Below the pieces are notes generated by a model, which saw nothing but the letters and a program-made list of their open reading frames with translations, did no database searches and was not told the origin of the DNA. The position numbers and the translations under genes are program-made. DNA of 64,000 nucleotides from Bradyrhizobium ontarionense (GTDB lineage Bacteria > Pseudomonadota > Alphaproteobacteria > Rhizobiales > Xanthobacteraceae), in assembly GCF_021088345.1 (NCBI RefSeq), contig NZ_CP088156.1, positions 6,386,001-6,450,000 on the forward strand, read 5' to 3'. Below, in pieces: positions 31,307 to 63,972 of the stretch (its first letter is position 1; each line of letters begins with the position of its first letter).

Positions 31307-31589
31307 AATAGTCGCGACCTCTACCTTACCCTGCCCCTGAAGTAGGTCAGTCGGCGAAGTAGAAAGGTTCAGCTCAGTACGGGGGGCACTGCCCCGCAGC
31401 AGGTGCGAAAACGCTTCGGGGCGAGAACCGCTTCTGGCCCCATTAGGGCGTTCCGGCTCGAACGCGATGGCGTCCGGTTGGCCGACCTGACCGGAAACAT
31501 ACCAAGCGACATCGCGCACTCGCCGGCCAGCGGTCTGCCTGCATTCGATCCAAATCGTTCGGCAGCATGAAACCCGGCCGAAAATGAAA

Positions 31590-31616
31590 GACGCGGCAGC
31601 CGGTGGCTGCCGCGTC
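31590..31616 (-). terminator. Terminator of the binding-protein array
   Basis: A 12-bp perfect stem (GACGCGGCAGCC / GGCTGCCGCGTC) with a three-base loop, just past the stop of the last binding-protein gene. On the minus strand it is followed by TTTCATTTT. Confidence 0.85.
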
Positions 31617-31646
31617 CATTTGTCAAAGGTCAGACCGAGCGCGAGG

Positions 31647-33218
31647 CTATTCCAGCTCGATCGCCTGGAACTTGCCGCGCTCGTCCAGCGCCGTACCCCA
31701 GATCTTGTGCGAAGCTTGGTGTTCGGCGCGGCCGAAGCCGAGCTTGGCGCCGAGGCCGAGATCGATGTCGCGCATGTTCTCCAGCGTGTCGATCAACGCC
31801 TCGCTGTCGAGCTGCGGGCCGACCCGACGCATCGCCTGAACCAGGACGTTGGCCGCGATATAGCCTTCGAACGACACGTAGGACGGTGCTTCGCCCGGGA
31901 AGTACTTCTCGAGCGCGCTCTTGTATTCGAGCACGGCGCTCGAATAGCCACCGACCGCCGGCACCACCTGGGTGACGATGACGCCGCTGGCATAGCGCGG
32001 ACCGAGCAGCATCAGTTCGTCGGACAGTTCGGTCGAGCCCACGAACGACACGTTGGTATAGATCATGCTCGGATAGAGATCGCGCGTCTTCTCGATGAAC
32101 TTCGCGGCCGCCCGGTAGGTCGCGACCATGACGATCGCCTTGGGCGGATTCTTCATCGCCCGCAGCTGGTTGACCGCCTCATCGACGTCCACCGTGTTGC
32201 GCTTGTAGTTGAAGCGGACGATGGACGTATCGGCGAGGCCGAGCGACCGGAAGGCCTTGGCCACACCGGAGAAGCCGGCATCGCCGTAGGCATCCTGTTG
32301 CGCGAACACGGCGATGTCCCTGGGCTGCAGGCGGCGCAGCTTGACGAGATAACGCACGACGGTGTCGGTCTCTTCCGCGTAGCTGGCGCGGTAGTTGAAT
32401 ACGTAGCGATCCGGCGGATCGTTGCGCAGGATGTTGGCGCCGGTGAACGCACCGTAGAACAGGACCCGGCGCTGCAGCGCGAAGGGCATGGCCACGGCCG
32501 AGGTCGGCGTGCCGACATTGCCGATGAAGCCGAACACCTTGTCCTTCTCGTAGAGCTGCTTCATCGCATCCAGCGTGCGCGCCGGCTCGTAGCCGTCGTC
32601 AGCCGAATACAGGCGCAGCGACCGCCCGGCGACACCGCCGCCGTCGTTGGCGCGGTTGAAGGCGGCCTCGATGCCAAGCTTCATCTGCCGGCCGAGCTCC
32701 TTCGACGCACCCGAGAACGGCGCGGCGATGCCGAAGCGGATCTCGTTGGCGGTCACCCCCTGGACGTTGCTGTTGGTCGGGGGCGGAAGCGTCGCCGTCG
32801 GCACCGTGGCGGCGACAGCCGCGGACGGGGCGATCACCCCGGCGAGGCTGGTGGCCGTCTGGCTCGGCGCGGCCTGCCCGAGCGAACGCTCGAGCTCGGC
32901 CAGCTGGCGGCCTGCGGCGTTGCAGTCCGTCTGCGCTGCACCGACGCGGTTGCGGCCGTCCGCGACGTAGCCGTTGAAGACGCGGGTGAGTTCGTCGCGA
33001 TCCGAGCCGCCCGTGGAGGCCTCCCGGATCACCTCGCGAAACTTGTCGACGATGGCCTGAACGCGGCCCTGGTCGATCGCCTGACAGGCGGATGCTGCTC
33101 CCACGATCGGCCCAACCCGGCTCGCAAGATTACGCACCACATCCGCATTGGTGCCCGCCGCGCTGGCGGGCGTTGCGAGCAATGCCGCAACCAAGAACAC
33201 GCTAGAACGAAAGCTCAT
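31647..33218 (-). CDS. Fusion protein: helical two-Cys domain + LivJ-type binding domain (array copy 1)
   Basis: A 523-residue exported protein, last of three tandem paralogues. Signal peptide ends PASAAG. Residues 25-115 form a helical domain with two conserved cysteines (Cys45 in ASACQAID, Cys99 in QTDCNAAGRQLAEL) and the blocks ASRVGPIVG and RDELTRVFNGYVADGR. After a Pro/Ala/Thr linker (116-155) comes a branched-chain amino-acid-type periplasmic binding domain: IRFGIAAPFSGASKELGRQ, LYSADDGYEPARTLDAM, FGFIGNVGTPTSAVAMPFAL, ending HQASHKIWGTALDERG. No permease or ATPase is near. ATG 33218 preferred; GTG 33224 possible. The N-terminal domain is not one I can name. Confidence 0.87.
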   Translation of the reverse strand: MSFRSSVFLVAALLATPASAAGTNADVVRNLASRVGPIVGAASACQAIDQGRVQAIVDKFREVIREASTGGSDRDELTRVFNGYVADGRNRVGAAQTDCNAAGRQLAELERSLGQAAPSQTATSLAGVIAPSAAVAATVPTATLPPPTNSNVQGVTANEIRFGIAAPFSGASKELGRQMKLGIEAAFNRANDGGGVAGRSLRLYSADDGYEPARTLDAMKQLYEKDKVFGFIGNVGTPTSAVAMPFALQRRVLFYGAFTGANILRNDPPDRYVFNYRASYAEETDTVVRYLVKLRRLQPRDIAVFAQQDAYGDAGFSGVAKAFRSLGLADTSIVRFNYKRNTVDVDEAVNQLRAMKNPPKAIVMVATYRAAAKFIEKTRDLYPSMIYTNVSFVGSTELSDELMLLGPRYASGVIVTQVVPAVGGYSSAVLEYKSALEKYFPGEAPSYVSFEGYIAANVLVQAMRRVGPQLDSEALIDTLENMRDIDLGLGAKLGFGRAEHQASHKIWGTALDERGKFQAIELE

Positions 33219-33430
33219 TGCCACTATCCCACTATGGACCCCATCCAGGTCTTCCGCCTGGTGATTTGACGCTTTGTCTGCGACGGAGAAGATTTATGAC
33301 CGCCACCATGCACAGACTAGCCTTTCCTAAGAGCATGACCATTTCGGTAACCCGGCACGGCTATCTCTGATCATGCTTTAGAACTTGCTAATGCGTCGTC
33401 TTCAACCAGTTCTTTTCCTTGCAGCTAAGT

Positions 33431-34960
33431 CTAGTCAAGTTCGATTGGCTGGTACGTGCCGGTTTCGTCGAGTGCAGTGCCCCAGATCTTGTGTGACGCC
33501 TGGTGCTCTGCGCGTCCAAATGCGAGTGGAGCGCCGAGGCCGAGATCGAGGCTGCGCATCGATTCGAGCGTGTCGACCAGTCGCTCGGTGTCGAGCGGAT
33601 CGGTCTGCTTCAGCGCCTGGATCAGGATCGTGGCCGCGATGTAGCCTTCGAGCGACGTGTAATCCGGCGCCTCACCGGGAGAATACTTGGCCAGTGCAGT
33701 CTTGTAGTCGAGCACGAGGCTCGAATACCCAGAAACAGCCGGCACGCCCTGCGTCACGATGACGCCATTGGTGAAGCGCGGACCGAGCAGTTTCAGCTCG
33801 GTCGCGAGCGACGTCGAGCCGACGGCGGATACGTTGGCGTAGATCAGGCCCGGCACCGCATCGCGCGTCTTCTCGATGAACTTCGCGGCCGCGCGATCGG
33901 TGGCCACCATGATGACCGCCTTGAGCTGAGGTTTGTAGGCCTTGACCTGGTTGACCGCCTCCTCGACATCCATCGTCGCGCGCGGATAGGTGAAACGCAC
34001 CACGGGATCGCTGACGTTCAGCTGCCGGTAGGCCTTCCCGACGCCGGCGAAACCGTCGTCGCCAAAGGCGTCCTGCTGGGTGAACACCGCGATCTGGCGC
34101 GGCGGAATCCGCTTCATCTTGACGAGATAGCGCACCAGCGCGGCCGTCTCCTCCGCGTAGCTGGCGCGGTAGTTGAAGACGTAGCGATCGGGCGGATCGC
34201 GCCTCACCACGAGCGCGCCGGAATTCGGTGCGAAATACAGCGCGCGCCGCTCCAGCGCGTAGGGAATGGCCACCTGCGAGTTCGCCGTGCCGATATTGCC
34301 GATGAAGCCGAACACCTGCTCCTTGTCGTAGAGCTGGCCCATCGCCGCTAGCGTCCGGTTCGGATCGTAGCCGTCATCGGCGGCGACGAGCCGAAGCGTG
34401 CGCCCGCCGACACCGCCGGCATCATTGGCGCGGGCGAAGGCGGCCTCGATGCCCTGTTTCATCTGGCGCCCGGTTTCCTTGCGGATGCCGGAGAACGGCA
34501 TGACGATACCAAAGCGGATCTCGCGCTCGGTGACGCCGCGCACCGCCGCTGCGGCCACGGCTCCCGTCGTCGCTTCCGCTGGAGAGGGCGCGCTCGGGCC
34601 GGCGGCGGCCGGCTGGCTCAGCGAGCGCTCCAACTCGGTCAATTGCCGCTCTGCGGTCGCGCAGTTCGCCTGCGAGGTGCCCGTGCGGCTGCGGCCTTCG
34701 GCGATGTAGCCGTTGAAGCTGCGGGTCAGCTGATCACGTTCGCCGTCGTCGGTCGTCGACTGACGAATGGCCTCGCGAAATCTGTCGACGATGGTCTGGA
34801 CGCGCCCCTGCGCGATGTCCGTGCAGGCCGACGCCTGGCCCACGATCGGCCCCACCCGGCCGGCGAGATCCCTGACCATGTCGGACGCCGCCGCGAATGC
34901 GGGCGTGAGGGGAGCACCGAACAGGCTCCCGATGATCAAGGCGGACCAACGAACCGTCAT
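33431..34960 (-). CDS. Fusion protein: helical two-Cys domain + LivJ-type binding domain (array copy 2)
   Basis: The middle paralogue, 509 residues. Signal peptide MTVRWSALIIGSLFGAPLTPAFA. The helical domain keeps GRVGPIVGQASACTDIAQGR, RDQLTRSFNGYIAEGRSRTG and the second cysteine in QANCATAERQLTEL. The binding domain starts IRFGIVMPFSGIRKETGRQ and ends HQASHKIWGTALDETG. In the ligand cleft region it differs from its neighbours (APNSGALVVRRDPPDRY against FYGAFTGANILRNDPPDRY), so ligands may differ. It lies 212 bp upstream of copy 1 and downstream of copy 3. GTG 34972 is an alternative start. Confidence 0.87.
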   Translation of the reverse strand: MTVRWSALIIGSLFGAPLTPAFAAASDMVRDLAGRVGPIVGQASACTDIAQGRVQTIVDRFREAIRQSTTDDGERDQLTRSFNGYIAEGRSRTGTSQANCATAERQLTELERSLSQPAAAGPSAPSPAEATTGAVAAAAVRGVTEREIRFGIVMPFSGIRKETGRQMKQGIEAAFARANDAGGVGGRTLRLVAADDGYDPNRTLAAMGQLYDKEQVFGFIGNIGTANSQVAIPYALERRALYFAPNSGALVVRRDPPDRYVFNYRASYAEETAALVRYLVKMKRIPPRQIAVFTQQDAFGDDGFAGVGKAYRQLNVSDPVVRFTYPRATMDVEEAVNQVKAYKPQLKAVIMVATDRAAAKFIEKTRDAVPGLIYANVSAVGSTSLATELKLLGPRFTNGVIVTQGVPAVSGYSSLVLDYKTALAKYSPGEAPDYTSLEGYIAATILIQALKQTDPLDTERLVDTLESMRSLDLGLGAPLAFGRAEHQASHKIWGTALDETGTYQPIELD

Positions 34961-35091
34961 CGAATTATCCACTCGCTCCGTGAGCTGCTGACCTCATCAC
35001 TCTGCTATTCGTGGCATTTCGAATTAATGTCGGGTTTCTCTGTCGCGTTTTTATCCGTGTTGGCGGGGGCTAACTGCCCGCCAGCGGTATT

Positions 35092-36717
35092 CTATTCAAG
35101 TTCGATGGGCTGGTAGGCGCCGCTGTCGTTCAGAGCCGTGCCCCAGATCTTGTGAGATGCCTGGTGTTCGGCGCGTTCGAAGCCGAGCTGGGCGCCGAGG
35201 CCGAGATCGACGTTGCGCATCGTCTCGAGCGTGTCGACCAGCTGCTCGGTGTCGAAACTGGGGCCGGCGCGCTTCAATCCCTCGATGAGGACGCTCGCCG
35301 ATATATAGCCTTCCAGCGAGGTATAATCCGCCGGTTCGCCGGGGAAGTACTTCGCAAGCGCGTTCTTGTACTCCAGCACCAGGCTCGAATAGCCGGAGAC
35401 GCCGGGGACGGTTTGCGTGACGATGACGCCATCGGCGTAGCGCGGACCAAGCAGCATCAATTCGCTGGCAAGCGCGGAGCCGCCGACCGCGGAGATGTTG
35501 GCGAAGATCGCGCCCGGGAAGACATCGTGCGCCTTCTCGATGAACTTGGCTGCGGCCCGGGTCGTTGCCAGCATGACCACGGCCCGGACCGGCGTCTTCA
35601 GCAGCTTCAGCTGGTTGATGGCGTCGTCCACATCCACCGTGTTGCGCGGATAGTTGACCCGGGCGATCGCATTGTCATTGGCGCCGAGCGCGCGAAACGC
35701 CTTGGCGACACCCGCAAAGCCGGCATCGCCGAACGCGTCGTTCTGCGCGAACACGACGATCTGGCGCGGCTGCAGCTTGCGGAGCTTGACCAGATACCGG
35801 ACGATCGCGTCGGTTTCCTCGGCATAGCTCGGTCGGTAGTTGAAGACGTAGCGGTCGGGCGGATCGTGGCGCACCACATTGGCGCCGGTGTAGGGCGCGA
35901 AAAACAGCGCGCGCCGCTCCAGCGCATAGGGGATCGCAACCGCGGCGGTCGCCGAGCCGAAATTGCAGATGAAGCCGAACACCTGCTCCTTTTCATGGAG
36001 CTGCTTCATCGCATCGAGCGTGCGCGCCGGATCATAGCCGTCGTCGGCGGTCACGAGCTTCAGCACGCGGCCGTTGATGCCGCCCGCTTCATTGGTGCGA
36101 TTGAACGCCGCCTCGACGCCGATCTTCAGCAGCCGCCCGCTTTCCTTCACCGGGCCGCCATAGGGGATGACCATGCCGAACTTCATGTCGCTCTGCGTGA
36201 TGCCGCGGACGGCGCCCGCAGGCGGCAGGATCTGCGCCGGCGCGGTTGCGGCCTGCGCGCTCGATGGTCCGATCGTCACCACGGGCAGGTTGGATCGCGC
36301 TTGTGTCGGCGTGGCGAGCGACTGTTCGAGCTCGCCAAGCTGGCGATCCGCGCCGCGGCAATCCAGGCGACCGCCGGTGACGAGGCCGCGGCCTTCGGCG
36401 ACATAGCGGTCGAGCAGGCGTGTCAATTCGTCGCGATCGGCCTCGCTCGAAGCGGCCTCGCGGATGACCATCTGAAACTTCTCGATGATCGCCTGAATAC
36501 GCGGCCGCGCGATGTCGCGGCATGCGAGCGCCGAGCCGATGATCGGGCCGACGCGGCTACCGAGCTGGCGCGCCACGCCGACATTGTCGCCGGGCGCAGC
36601 CATGACGCCGCTCGTCGCAGCATCGCTGGTCGCGATGATGCCGAGCAGGGCGGCTGCCATACGGGCGTGAGCCCGCGGACGGCGTGCTGCCGCTTTCTGC
36701 GGTAGGACGTCGATCAT
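35092..36717 (-). CDS. Fusion protein: helical two-Cys domain + LivJ-type binding domain (array copy 3)
   Basis: The first of the three in transcription order, 541 residues. The N-terminus is longer and more basic (ARRPRAHARMAAALLGIIA) before the export signal. The helical domain keeps GSRVGPIIGSALACRDIARP, RDELTRLLDRYVAEGRG and the second cysteine in RLDCRGADRQLGELEQSL. The binding domain begins MKFGMVIPYGGPVKESGRL and ends HQASHKIWGTALNDSG. An extra Cys sits in FGFICNFGSATAAVAI. It follows the membrane-protein gene by 45 bp, so these two at least are likely cotranscribed. Ligand unknown. Confidence 0.87.
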   Translation of the reverse strand: MIDVLPQKAAARRPRAHARMAAALLGIIATSDAATSGVMAAPGDNVGVARQLGSRVGPIIGSALACRDIARPRIQAIIEKFQMVIREAASSEADRDELTRLLDRYVAEGRGLVTGGRLDCRGADRQLGELEQSLATPTQARSNLPVVTIGPSSAQAATAPAQILPPAGAVRGITQSDMKFGMVIPYGGPVKESGRLLKIGVEAAFNRTNEAGGINGRVLKLVTADDGYDPARTLDAMKQLHEKEQVFGFICNFGSATAAVAIPYALERRALFFAPYTGANVVRHDPPDRYVFNYRPSYAEETDAIVRYLVKLRKLQPRQIVVFAQNDAFGDAGFAGVAKAFRALGANDNAIARVNYPRNTVDVDDAINQLKLLKTPVRAVVMLATTRAAAKFIEKAHDVFPGAIFANISAVGGSALASELMLLGPRYADGVIVTQTVPGVSGYSSLVLEYKNALAKYFPGEPADYTSLEGYISASVLIEGLKRAGPSFDTEQLVDTLETMRNVDLGLGAQLGFERAEHQASHKIWGTALNDSGAYQPIELE

Positions 36718-36762
36718 TGTCGCCTTATGGGATGCTTTTGAATTCGGATCAGAGCAAGCGGG

Positions 36763-37401
36763 TTAGCGAACCCGCTCCATCTGTCCCGTCTTCTGGTTCC
36801 ACTGCATGAACTGCTGCAGCATGGGCTTTTCGGGAGTCTCCGCCTCGGCGGTCGGCGCCGGAGCATCCGTGGCCAGCAGGGACTTGAACTGCGACAGCGC
36901 CGGGACCGGGGCTTCGGCCCGCTCCGGCAGCGAACTGGTCTGGTCCGCCTTGGCGTCGTCCGCATCGGCAGCCACGGCCGGCAGCGTCTTCATCGACTGC
37001 ACGGCGGCGACGAATGATGAGCTCGCATCGGGCTGGCGCCACACCGGAACGATGTTGACGAAGAACAGCGCGACGACGGCAGCCACACCGGTTGCCGCGG
37101 CGAAGCGCCCGGCGATCTTGAACACGACCGAGCGGCGGTCGCGCTCACGCTCGAGATCCGGGGGCTCGCGCATGACTTGCGGGTTCAGCGACTGGCGAAG
37201 GGATTCGAACACGGCGGTCTCCAAGCGAGCATCGAGCGGTCCTTGCTGTCCCGAAGCGGGACGCTCGGCCGCCTCCGCTGCCTTGGCGTTGTCACCAACA
37301 AGAGATAGACGTGCTGCCTCCGGGCGTTCGCGCAGCCAGCGCGGCGCGTAGTGCAGCGGGTCTTGTGGGTTCATCGGATTCTGTTCACTCAACGAACTCA
37401 T
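36763..37401 (-). CDS. Single-pass membrane protein heading the binding-protein array
   Basis: A 212-residue protein starting at 37401 with AGAGGAG seven bases upstream. Residues 1-110 are polar and cytoplasmic-looking (YAPRWLRERPEAARLSL, DLERERDRRSVVFKI), one helix follows (FAAATGVAAVVALFFVNIVP), then about 85 residues with a Pro/Ala/Asp-rich stretch and a short conserved-looking end, MLQQFMQWNQKTGQMERVR. With positive residues before the helix, the C-terminal part should be periplasmic. No family is recognised. Position and spacing suggest it works with the three secreted binding proteins. Confidence 0.75.
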   Translation of the reverse strand: MSSLSEQNPMNPQDPLHYAPRWLRERPEAARLSLVGDNAKAAEAAERPASGQQGPLDARLETAVFESLRQSLNPQVMREPPDLERERDRRSVVFKIAGRFAAATGVAAVVALFFVNIVPVWRQPDASSSFVAAVQSMKTLPAVAADADDAKADQTSSLPERAEAPVPALSQFKSLLATDAPAPTAEAETPEKPMLQQFMQWNQKTGQMERVR

Positions 37402-47575: not shown

Positions 47576-48352
47576 CTACGGCAGGTCCAGCCCGCTCTTC
47601 TGCATCGACTCCGTCGCAGCTGGTGACGTCAGATAGGCAAGAAATTGCTTTGCGACGTCCACGCTGGCCGCTTTGGACGACACGGCGGCTGACACGACGC
47701 TCTTCTTCTGCAGATCGTCGGGCAGCGGTCCAACGACAATGATTCCCGGCTCCAGCCGCAGCTCGCTGATCTGCTGGAGACCGAGCTCGACCTCGCCGCT
47801 GGCGATGGCTTCTCCAACAAACTTGCGGCCCAGTATGACGTGGCTCTTGCCCGCAACCTGGTCGGCGATGCCGAGCTTCTTGAGCAGGACATTGGCAACA
47901 TACGTCCCGCTGGCTCCCTCGGAATAGCCGATCGACGTCGCATCGAGGAGTGCCTGGCGAAGCGCTGCTTCCGTCGAGATGTCCGGTAGCCTGTGCCCGG
48001 CTTTCACCGCAACGCCGATCTTGGACACGGCGACGTCCTTGCGCTCGACCGGGGCGAAGTATCCGCCCTTGATCAACTCATCCATCCCGGTGTTGACCAT
48101 GATCAGCACGTCGACATGCTCGCCGTTCTTCACACGGACCTGGCTGGCTTCGGGGGAATTGCCTGATGACGGTCCCCAGGACATCGTGATCCTGTGACCG
48201 GTCTCGCGCTCGAAGCTGCTCGCGATCTCTGTGAACGATCCTTTCAGGATGCCGGTGGTCAGGATCTTGAGCTCGTCGGCATCAGCCGTCGCCATTGGCA
48301 TCGACAGCAGCGCAGCGCACGCGAGCGCACGGACCGCAAATGAATGGATCAT
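47576..48352 (-). CDS. ModA-like periplasmic substrate-binding protein
   Basis: A 258-residue extracellular binding protein of the molybdate/tungstate-binding (ModA, PBP II) class with signal peptide ending TADA. It shows LKILTTGILKGSFTEIASSFERETGH, then HVDVLIMVNTGMDELIKGGYF, SIGYSEGASGTYVANVLLKKLG and VELGLQQISELRLEPGIIVVGPLP. Oxyanion residues of true ModA (Ser in the first loop) are replaced by Thr-Gly, so an organic ligand is possible. No permease or ATPase is adjacent. It converges on the hydrolase gene, and a half-palindrome like the IclR operator lies 76 bp upstream. Confidence 0.85.
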   Translation of the reverse strand: MIHSFAVRALACAALLSMPMATADADELKILTTGILKGSFTEIASSFERETGHRITMSWGPSSGNSPEASQVRVKNGEHVDVLIMVNTGMDELIKGGYFAPVERKDVAVSKIGVAVKAGHRLPDISTEAALRQALLDATSIGYSEGASGTYVANVLLKKLGIADQVAGKSHVILGRKFVGEAIASGEVELGLQQISELRLEPGIIVVGPLPDDLQKKSVVSAAVSSKAASVDVAKQFLAYLTSPAATESMQKSGLDLP

Positions 48353-63282: not shown

Positions 63283-63972
63283 ATGAGCGTGACCGCCGCT
63301 GGCATTTCCTCGATGGCGACCCGGCAGATCCTCTCAGAGCTCGCAGCCGCCTATGAGGAGGCGACCGGCGAGGTGATCACGATCGAATCCGTCGGCGGCG
63401 TCGATGCTGCCAAACGCATCCGCGCTGGCGAGGCGTTCGACTTCGCGGTGCTGGCGTCCGACGCGCTGCAGAAGCTCGAGGCCGACGGTCATCTCGTGCC
63501 CGGCAGCATCATCGAGATCGCGGAATCACCGATGGCGATGGCGGTGCGCGCCGGCAGTCCGAAGCCTGATCCGCTCGACGAGGCCGCTGTGCGCAAGGCC
63601 ATGGAGAGCGCCAAGGCGATCGGCATCTCGACCGGGCCGAGCGGCACCCACGTGCAGAAATTGGCGCGCGACTGGGGTTTGGAGAGCGAGGGCGTCTCGC
63701 GCCTGGTCCAGGCCAAGCCCGGCATTCCCGTCGCAAAACTGCTTGCTGAGGGCGAGGTCGAGGTCGGCTTCCAGCAGCTCAGCGAAATGCTGGGCGCGCC
63801 CGGCATCGAGATCGTCGGCCTGTTGCCGGAGTCACTGCAGCCGGGGACTGTGTTTGCCGCGGCACTCTGCAAGGCGGCCGTCAATCAGGACGCGGCCCGC
63901 GCCTTCATCGAATATCTCGTCTCCGAGGAGACCGCCGAGACCAAACGCCAGCACGGCATGACGCCGCTGTGA
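63283..63972 (+). CDS. ModA-like binding protein without signal peptide
   Basis: A 229-residue protein related to the ModA-like gene at 47576-48352. It begins MSVTAAGISSMATRQILSEL with AACGGAGCAGACC upstream. Unlike its relative it has no export signal, so it should stay in the cytoplasm. Shared blocks are FDFAVLASDALQKLEADGHL, GISTGPSGTHVQKLARDWGL and GEVEVGFQQLSEMLGAPGIE. No transport genes follow up to the window edge. A cytoplasmic ligand-sensing or storage role is possible, or a missed upstream exon-like start with a signal peptide; the 100 bp upstream shows none. Confidence 0.82.
   Translation: MSVTAAGISSMATRQILSELAAAYEEATGEVITIESVGGVDAAKRIRAGEAFDFAVLASDALQKLEADGHLVPGSIIEIAESPMAMAVRAGSPKPDPLDEAAVRKAMESAKAIGISTGPSGTHVQKLARDWGLESEGVSRLVQAKPGIPVAKLLAEGEVEVGFQQLSEMLGAPGIEIVGLLPESLQPGTVFAAALCKAAVNQDAARAFIEYLVSEETAETKRQHGMTPL

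Follow-up and report, generated by a model that had tools for sequence, protein, structure and literature searches.

Rhizobia and their relatives carry many solute-binding proteins without an adjoining transporter, and the role of these proteins is largely open. In the LivJFGHM importer, permease and ATPase genes accompany the binding protein. BP0403 of Bordetella pertussis is a lipoprotein with extra domains, of which the helical one dimerises, that is paired with GltS and has no TRAP membrane gene (PMC12344293). The locus described here lies in a stretch of 64,000 nucleotides (the window; bases 6386001 to 6450000 of an 8.4-Mb one-contig genome). Its products are TM, a single-pass membrane protein, and three fusions, S1 to S3, of a two-cysteine helical domain to a LivJ-type binding domain. 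As in BP0403-GltS, the binding protein carries an additional helical domain and lacks a classical membrane partner; in contrast, the TAXI domain, the lipoprotein and the multi-pass glutamate symporter partner of that system (PMC12344293) have no counterpart in the array. From ordinary LivJ/HAAT-type proteins (PF13458) the fusions differ in their N-terminal domain and paired membrane protein, in the lack of an adjoining permease or ATPase gene, and in that the residue aligned with the ligand-amine Glu of 4n0q is not acidic. Among open-licence papers, we found none on the TM/fusion pair or on the TAXI/Sel1-type module described below. What is new here is the near-strict pairing of TM with the fusion and the link, via the TM family, to TAXI-type modules.

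Four ORFs on the minus strand span window positions 31647 to 37401 in the order TM, S3, S2, S1, where the first-pass annotation had placed them (Table 1). The gap of 45 bp that it gave between TM and the first fusion is exact; the S3-S2 and S2-S1 gaps are 119 and 206 bp. Its description of three same-strand genes with a shared fusion architecture is borne out by the ORFs, the Pfam matches and the mutual identity of the proteins (identity to S1, 64% for S2 and 61% for S3). Of the strong terminator that it saw at the array end, a terminator-like hairpin with a 13-pair stem (31617-31589) stands, but the total yield of the terminator scan exceeded that of shuffled sequence only slightly (8 found versus 4.8 ± 2.4). 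Orthologous arrays are present in other Bradyrhizobium, and the closest named matches to S2 are from Bradyrhizobium sp. SRS-191 (88%) and BTAi1 (87%). Whole-gene dN/dS against the orthologues in L035, L034 and L044 was 0.06-0.10 for S1, 0.06-0.09 for TM, 0.11-0.15 for S2 and 0.17-0.20 for S3. Given the orthologous arrays and dN/dS of 0.06-0.20, the array does not consist of chance ORFs. S1, S2 and S3 fall into three separate clades of the tree, each with its own orthologues; a further copy in the same genome, at 713096, groups with the sister group of S2. minC and minD (Pfam) are divergent from TM, as is a gene that reads by eye as minE. At two loci, L036 (from 11558) and L044 (from 11762), S1 is separated from the conserved gene that comes next by two additional called genes, one of them about 1000 aa long. 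Elsewhere in the window, 47579-48352 (-) and 63283-63969 (+) look, by eye, like lone molybdate-type binding-protein genes.

Table 1. Features of the array, in window coordinates
Feature	Position	Strand	Description	Basis
TM	36763..37401	-	212-aa single-pass membrane protein, head of the array	ORF list, hydropathy, co-inheritance with fusion
S3	35092..36717	-	Two-Cys/Peripla_BP_6 fusion, 541 aa	ORF list, Pfam, alignment
S2	33431..34972	-	Two-Cys/Peripla_BP_6 fusion, 513 aa	ORF list, Pfam, alignment
S1	31647..33224	-	Two-Cys/Peripla_BP_6 fusion, 525 aa, most conserved copy	ORF list, Pfam, dN/dS
Two-Cys domain of S1	32877..33149	-	Predicted four-helix domain, residues 26-116	Structure models, dN/dS 0-0.02
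Peripla_BP_6 domain of S1	31650..32759	-	Residues 156-525	Pfam match, structure model
YAPR motif region of TM	37324..37368	-	Residues 12-26, probably cytoplasmic	Conservation; topology from charge, by eye
Membrane helix of TM	37042..37104	-	Residues 100-120	Hydropathy peak at residue 100; conservation 0.67
C-terminal tail of TM	36799..36822	-	MLQQFMQW, residues 194-201	Conservation 0.85; homologue pattern
Hairpin 3' of S1	31589..31617	-	Terminator-like	Consensus scan

By eye, each fusion begins with a signal-like sequence, and we infer that all three are exported; ~90 residues without a known family follow, and a linker joins them to a complete Peripla_BP_6 domain. Peripla_BP_6 (PF13458, the LivJ fold) was matched over nearly its whole length in all three (E = 4.3e-58, 1.8e-61 and 1.5e-63), with scores of 198, 209 and 216 bits that place them well inside the family (Pfam curated cut-off, 31.7). 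The NCBIfam matches also fall inside the binding domain, and no NMT1_3 (TAXI, PF16868) domain was found by Pfam. In an AlphaFold2 model of S1 (mean pLDDT, 81.7; 28 sequences), residues 26-45, 52-69, 73-95 and 101-116 form helices, and a linker of low confidence (118-151) connects them to the binding domain. The C termini of the fusions read IELE or IELD and lack the tail motif. Where 4n0q has its ligand-amine Glu and 4obb has N280, the alignment puts Ser or Thr in S1 to S3 in either register. Since there is no acidic residue where leucine-bound relatives have one, our best guess from the sequence is that the ligand would be a small organic or keto acid.

The N-terminal domain carries two conserved cysteines 54 residues apart: C47 and C101 in S1 (from its GTG start), C50 and C104 in S2, and C66 and C120 in S3. 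The first-pass annotation had recognised both in S1 but, counting from an ATG two codons on, numbered them Cys45 and Cys99. Both are present in all 55 aligned rows with a complete domain, a count that drops rows without the domain (for example, L032, L066 and L071-L073); in a 63-row alignment, the second is invariant and the first is conserved in at least 90% of rows. Pfam profile searches with the first ~120 residues of S1 to S3 gave no significant match to a known family. DUF2385/TIGR02301 (PF09539), on which we found no open-licence paper, is likewise a short exported alphaproteobacterial protein with two similarly placed cysteines (by eye), but its sequence relation to the two-Cys domain is not significant. 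One weak Pfam match had E = 0.11, the best E value was 0.05 in one of 15 members, as for chance families, and the hhalign probability was 3% with a shallow and 0.6% with a deeper alignment (decoys, up to 0.65%). Hence, we rejected DUF2385 as the parent of the domain. All 68 full-length matches with the two-Cys domain carry PF13458, so the helical domain appears to be confined to this binding-protein family. A stand-alone form was also rejected: short matches resemble fusion starts in the four that were inspected. Of 352 short matches, the 120 listed are 111-165 aa long, and the named ones are mostly "binding protein" or hypothetical.

A separate model of the two-Cys domain (63 sequences; pLDDT, 76.5) agrees with the model of S1. 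C47 comes just after helix 1 and C101 at the start of helix 4; in an up-down bundle, both cysteines would lie at one end, and we expect a C47-C101 disulphide. A comparison with solved folds gave no clear structural match, which is no proof of a new fold. The two-Cys domain of S1 is nearly frozen, with a dN/dS of 0-0.02 (0.06-0.10 for its binding domain), and the copies in S2 (0.12-0.20) and S3 (0.14-0.20) are less constrained; these values come from ninety codons, which is few, and the three pairs compared share one sequence.

In an alignment of 17 sequences, TM has three conserved islands, the YAPR region (0.67), the helix (0.67) and the tail (0.85), separated by linkers with values of 0.45 and 0.36. 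The first value is the mean for residues 10-28, among which A19 and P20 are invariant. Positive charges precede the helix (by eye), which puts the N terminus inside. The strict tail pattern (LLQQFMQW type) is found in 115 of the 120 homologues listed (of 451), and the other five keep F and W. No recognised signalling domain was found in TM with Pfam or NCBIfam; weak matches to SAP130_C and GlnX (E = 0.004-0.03) were taken as chance. The first-pass view of TM as a membrane protein of no recognised family has to be given up, since TM does have relatives, which are longer proteins with a Sel1-like end. We coined the name "YAP/Sel1-type membrane protein family" for them. The family profile matches TM with E = 1.2e-12 over positions 7-156 of 408, corresponding to a shared N terminus and membrane helix. 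The match ends there, and TM ends in its tail motif, with no Sel1-like periplasmic end. A search with a profile of the TM alignment retrieves the Sel1-type members, whose Sel1 matches are below the Pfam cut-off. Four TM-family proteins were found in the same genome, TM included, and each adjoins a binding-protein gene. A second tail-bearing YAPR-type protein, without an adjoining fusion, is encoded at L113:5697-6272 (-) and L211:6383-6937 (-), and several genomes of the genus have extra YAPR-type matches of that kind.

The genes for TM and the two-Cys/LivJ fusion lie side by side and are inherited together near-strictly. We surveyed 146 genomes of the genus with thresholds of 1e-20 (TM type) and 1e-180 (fusion), scoring the best candidates per genome, so that absences are not final. 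A TM-type match was present in 42 genomes and a fusion match in 41; 41 genomes had both, one had the TM type only (G212), none had the fusion only, and 104 had neither. TM is directly upstream of the fusion on the same strand in 40 of the 41, and in the exception (G416) the TM match is 460 bases away from the end of a contig, on the side expected to hold the fusion. These counts support the tie between membrane protein and fusion that the first-pass annotation had suggested. The three-copy array that it described is a local expansion: 31 of the 41 genomes have one fusion match, seven have two and three have five or six (matches without the two-Cys part included). The two-Cys part is seen in 39 genomes; the sole fusion matches of G416 and G486 miss the start of the profile. 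In 198 genomes of the family, full-length fusion matches and TM matches below 1e-50 occur in the same five, and two genomes (G002 and G131) have close binding-domain matches that begin after the two-Cys part.

Genome contigs searched with S2 yielded 41 loci; TM is directly upstream of the first fusion in 27. The other 14 comprise three at contig ends (L037, L065 and L067), seven scattered paralogues (L038-L041, L055, L060 and L066) and four distant relatives, of which L071-L073 show no two-Cys domain, and nor does L074, which is outside the alignment. minC and minD are also present in 21 of the 27 TM-fusion loci. Four others (L042, L046, L057 and L058) have the pair without minC or minD despite ample upstream sequence, which indicates that the pair travels as a unit; we read minCDE as synteny rather than as a functional partner. 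Tandem relatives occur in Myxococcales (L071:993-3723 and L072:7797-10311), the first with a hydrophobic N-terminal segment, and those of L071 adjoin acid-metabolism genes.

Several of the longer TM relatives with a Sel1-like end directly adjoin TAXI-family binding proteins (NMT1_3, PF16868). All of eight TAXI proteins compared (31-36% identity to the first one) end in LFxxF(L/I)xW. These orphan TAXI/Sel1-type pairs resemble the window pair in the N terminus and helix of the membrane partner and in a similar C-terminal tail. They differ in that the binding protein is of another superfamily and bears the tail itself, when there is one, and in that the membrane partner ends Sel1-like. In the same genome as the window, where 9 of 58 first-look candidates were scored, seven TAXI proteins were found, all seven ending in L[FY]xx[FY]xxW and three lying beside a Sel1-type protein. 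Two of those three are double binding proteins, in which a TAXI-type domain bearing the tail motif comes after a LivJ-type domain; their genes, L202:4303-6711 (-) and L199:5166-7535 (+), lie near 7.84 and 3.09 Mb, and the second had its domains assigned by alignment and eye. Across 199 genomes of the order, 51 of 97 TAXI places have a Sel1-type match within 3.5 kb among the 95 strongest such matches. By genome, 44 have both, 8 TAXI only, 14 Sel1 type only and 133 neither, the Sel1-type profile matching mainly via its C-terminal part, so that some matches may be other Sel1 proteins. We conclude that the array is a lineage-specific variant of a wider module consisting of a membrane protein and a transporter-less binding protein.

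Sel1-type neighbours are as common where the TAXI match includes the tail (31 of 62) as where it stops short of it (20 of 35). In 20 regions fetched for tail-less TAXI/Sel1 pairs, neither protein carries a tail in any of the 20, so that the tail has not been swapped onto the partners of tail-less TAXI proteins there. Another 20 regions were chosen for tail-bearing TAXI proteins; 19 have the tail by pattern, and one (L251) has LFARFTKF. A Sel1-type neighbour is present in 19 of these 20 (not L232), and none of the 19 neighbours has a tail. Thus, the tail is not needed for TAXI/Sel1 pairing and was never found on both partners in the fetched regions; in the window, it is on TM. These results speak against a simple docking story. 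Among 575 called genes at the examined loci, 18 have the tail in their last 30 residues versus 0.6 expected from interior rates, and 16 of the 18 belong to the TM or TAXI families, the rows being largely orthologues. The tail failed as a genome-wide DNA motif, with two hits in the same genome versus two in the reversed control and nine places in 25 genomes.

The reading that we favour, plausible but tentative, is a transporter-less, membrane-linked solute-binding module, in which fusions tethered by TM would serve in sensing or capture. TM would hold the fusions at the membrane, and its periplasmic tail would touch either the two-Cys domain or a third protein that they share. Ligand binding might be reported inwards through the YAPR end of TM to a cytoplasmic partner; alternatively, the complex may simply concentrate ligand at the membrane. 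In the window version, the Sel1-like end is gone, the tail is on the membrane protein, and the binding protein has gained a helical domain; triplication in the photosynthetic clade and the differing cleft loops may allow several ligands to share one membrane partner. In favour of the module we count the strict pairing, the three islands of TM, the position of TM-family proteins beside binding proteins and the similar TAXI tail. Further hints are the frozen two-Cys domain of S1, a paralogue (L032) whose binding domain is joined to its own hydrophobic segment, and the chemoreceptor genes before two paralogues (L055 and L066). Against it we count the tail-less TAXI/Sel1 pairs, the two-Cys paralogues without TM, the weaker constraint on S2 and S3, the transporter genes at one locus (L061) and the lack of a recognised signalling domain in TM.

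The main rival, which we consider somewhat unlikely, is that these are ordinary orphan binding proteins working for a transporter, of the LivHMGF type or another, whose genes lie elsewhere; TM would then be an anchor or assembly factor that does not signal. The binding domain is an ordinary PF13458 domain, and with 28 LivJ-type matches in the genome in all, transporters to share are likely. However, a motif scan and gene calls found neither a permease nor an ATPase gene beside the window array, as the first-pass annotation had stated; the gene set of a LivJFGHM importer is therefore lacking at the array. In a crude motif scan of the window and L030-L078, transporter genes adjoin an array only at L061, although ABC ATPase-like genes occur in some of the loci. 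At L061:5911-8609 (-), two BPD_transp_2 permeases (LivH/M type) and an ABC ATPase (Pfam) are convergent with the fusion. This single case is far from the constant association of homologues with LivFGHM genes that would have told against the first-pass interpretation. Moreover, transport alone leaves the strict TM pairing and the extra domain unexplained.

It is quite improbable that the two-Cys domain dimerises the binding proteins and that the array works with a secondary transporter, by analogy with the TAXI protein BP0403, whose helical domain is responsible for dimerisation and which is paired with GltS (PMC12344293). In the models, the two-Cys domain is a small helical addition too, but TM is single-pass, and no gene for a secondary transporter was recognised next to the pair.

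Scattered fusion paralogues with the two-Cys domain and without TM alongside (L030, L031, L038-L041, L055 and L060) speak clearly neither for nor against tethering. In L055 (6077-9542) and L066 (6435-9176), an sCache_2 chemoreceptor gene lies ~70 bp upstream of the paralogue on the same strand; L066 has four chemoreceptor genes around its paralogue, three of them after it, and in L031 an sCache_2 receptor gene is the second gene after the fusion copy. The position of the paralogue behind a chemoreceptor gene in two relatives leans towards sensing. That the fusions act as remote co-receptors of chemotaxis receptors, with TM only tethering them, would fit these neighbourhoods but is very improbable: near the window array no chemoreceptor gene was seen, the two-Cys domain is missing from the L066 copy, and sCache receptors usually bind ligand themselves.

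In the boldest reading, a YAPR single-pass protein could couple periplasmic binding proteins from two unrelated superfamilies, TAXI and LivJ type, to a cytoplasmic partner, which would amount to a new solute-sensing class in Hyphomicrobiales with an interchangeable LFxxFLxW-type tail, placed on the binding protein in one version and, in the other, on the membrane protein facing the two-Cys domain. We now hold this to be distinctly unlikely, having lowered our estimate from somewhat unlikely because the tail-swap test found no tail on the partners. What the locus offers is a compact, almost always co-inherited pair with candidate parts, namely, two cysteines, a helical domain, an eight-residue tail and the YAPR motif. 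Finding out whether such a protein senses or feeds a transporter may also inform on the TAXI/Sel1-type pairs, which were found across many families of the order.
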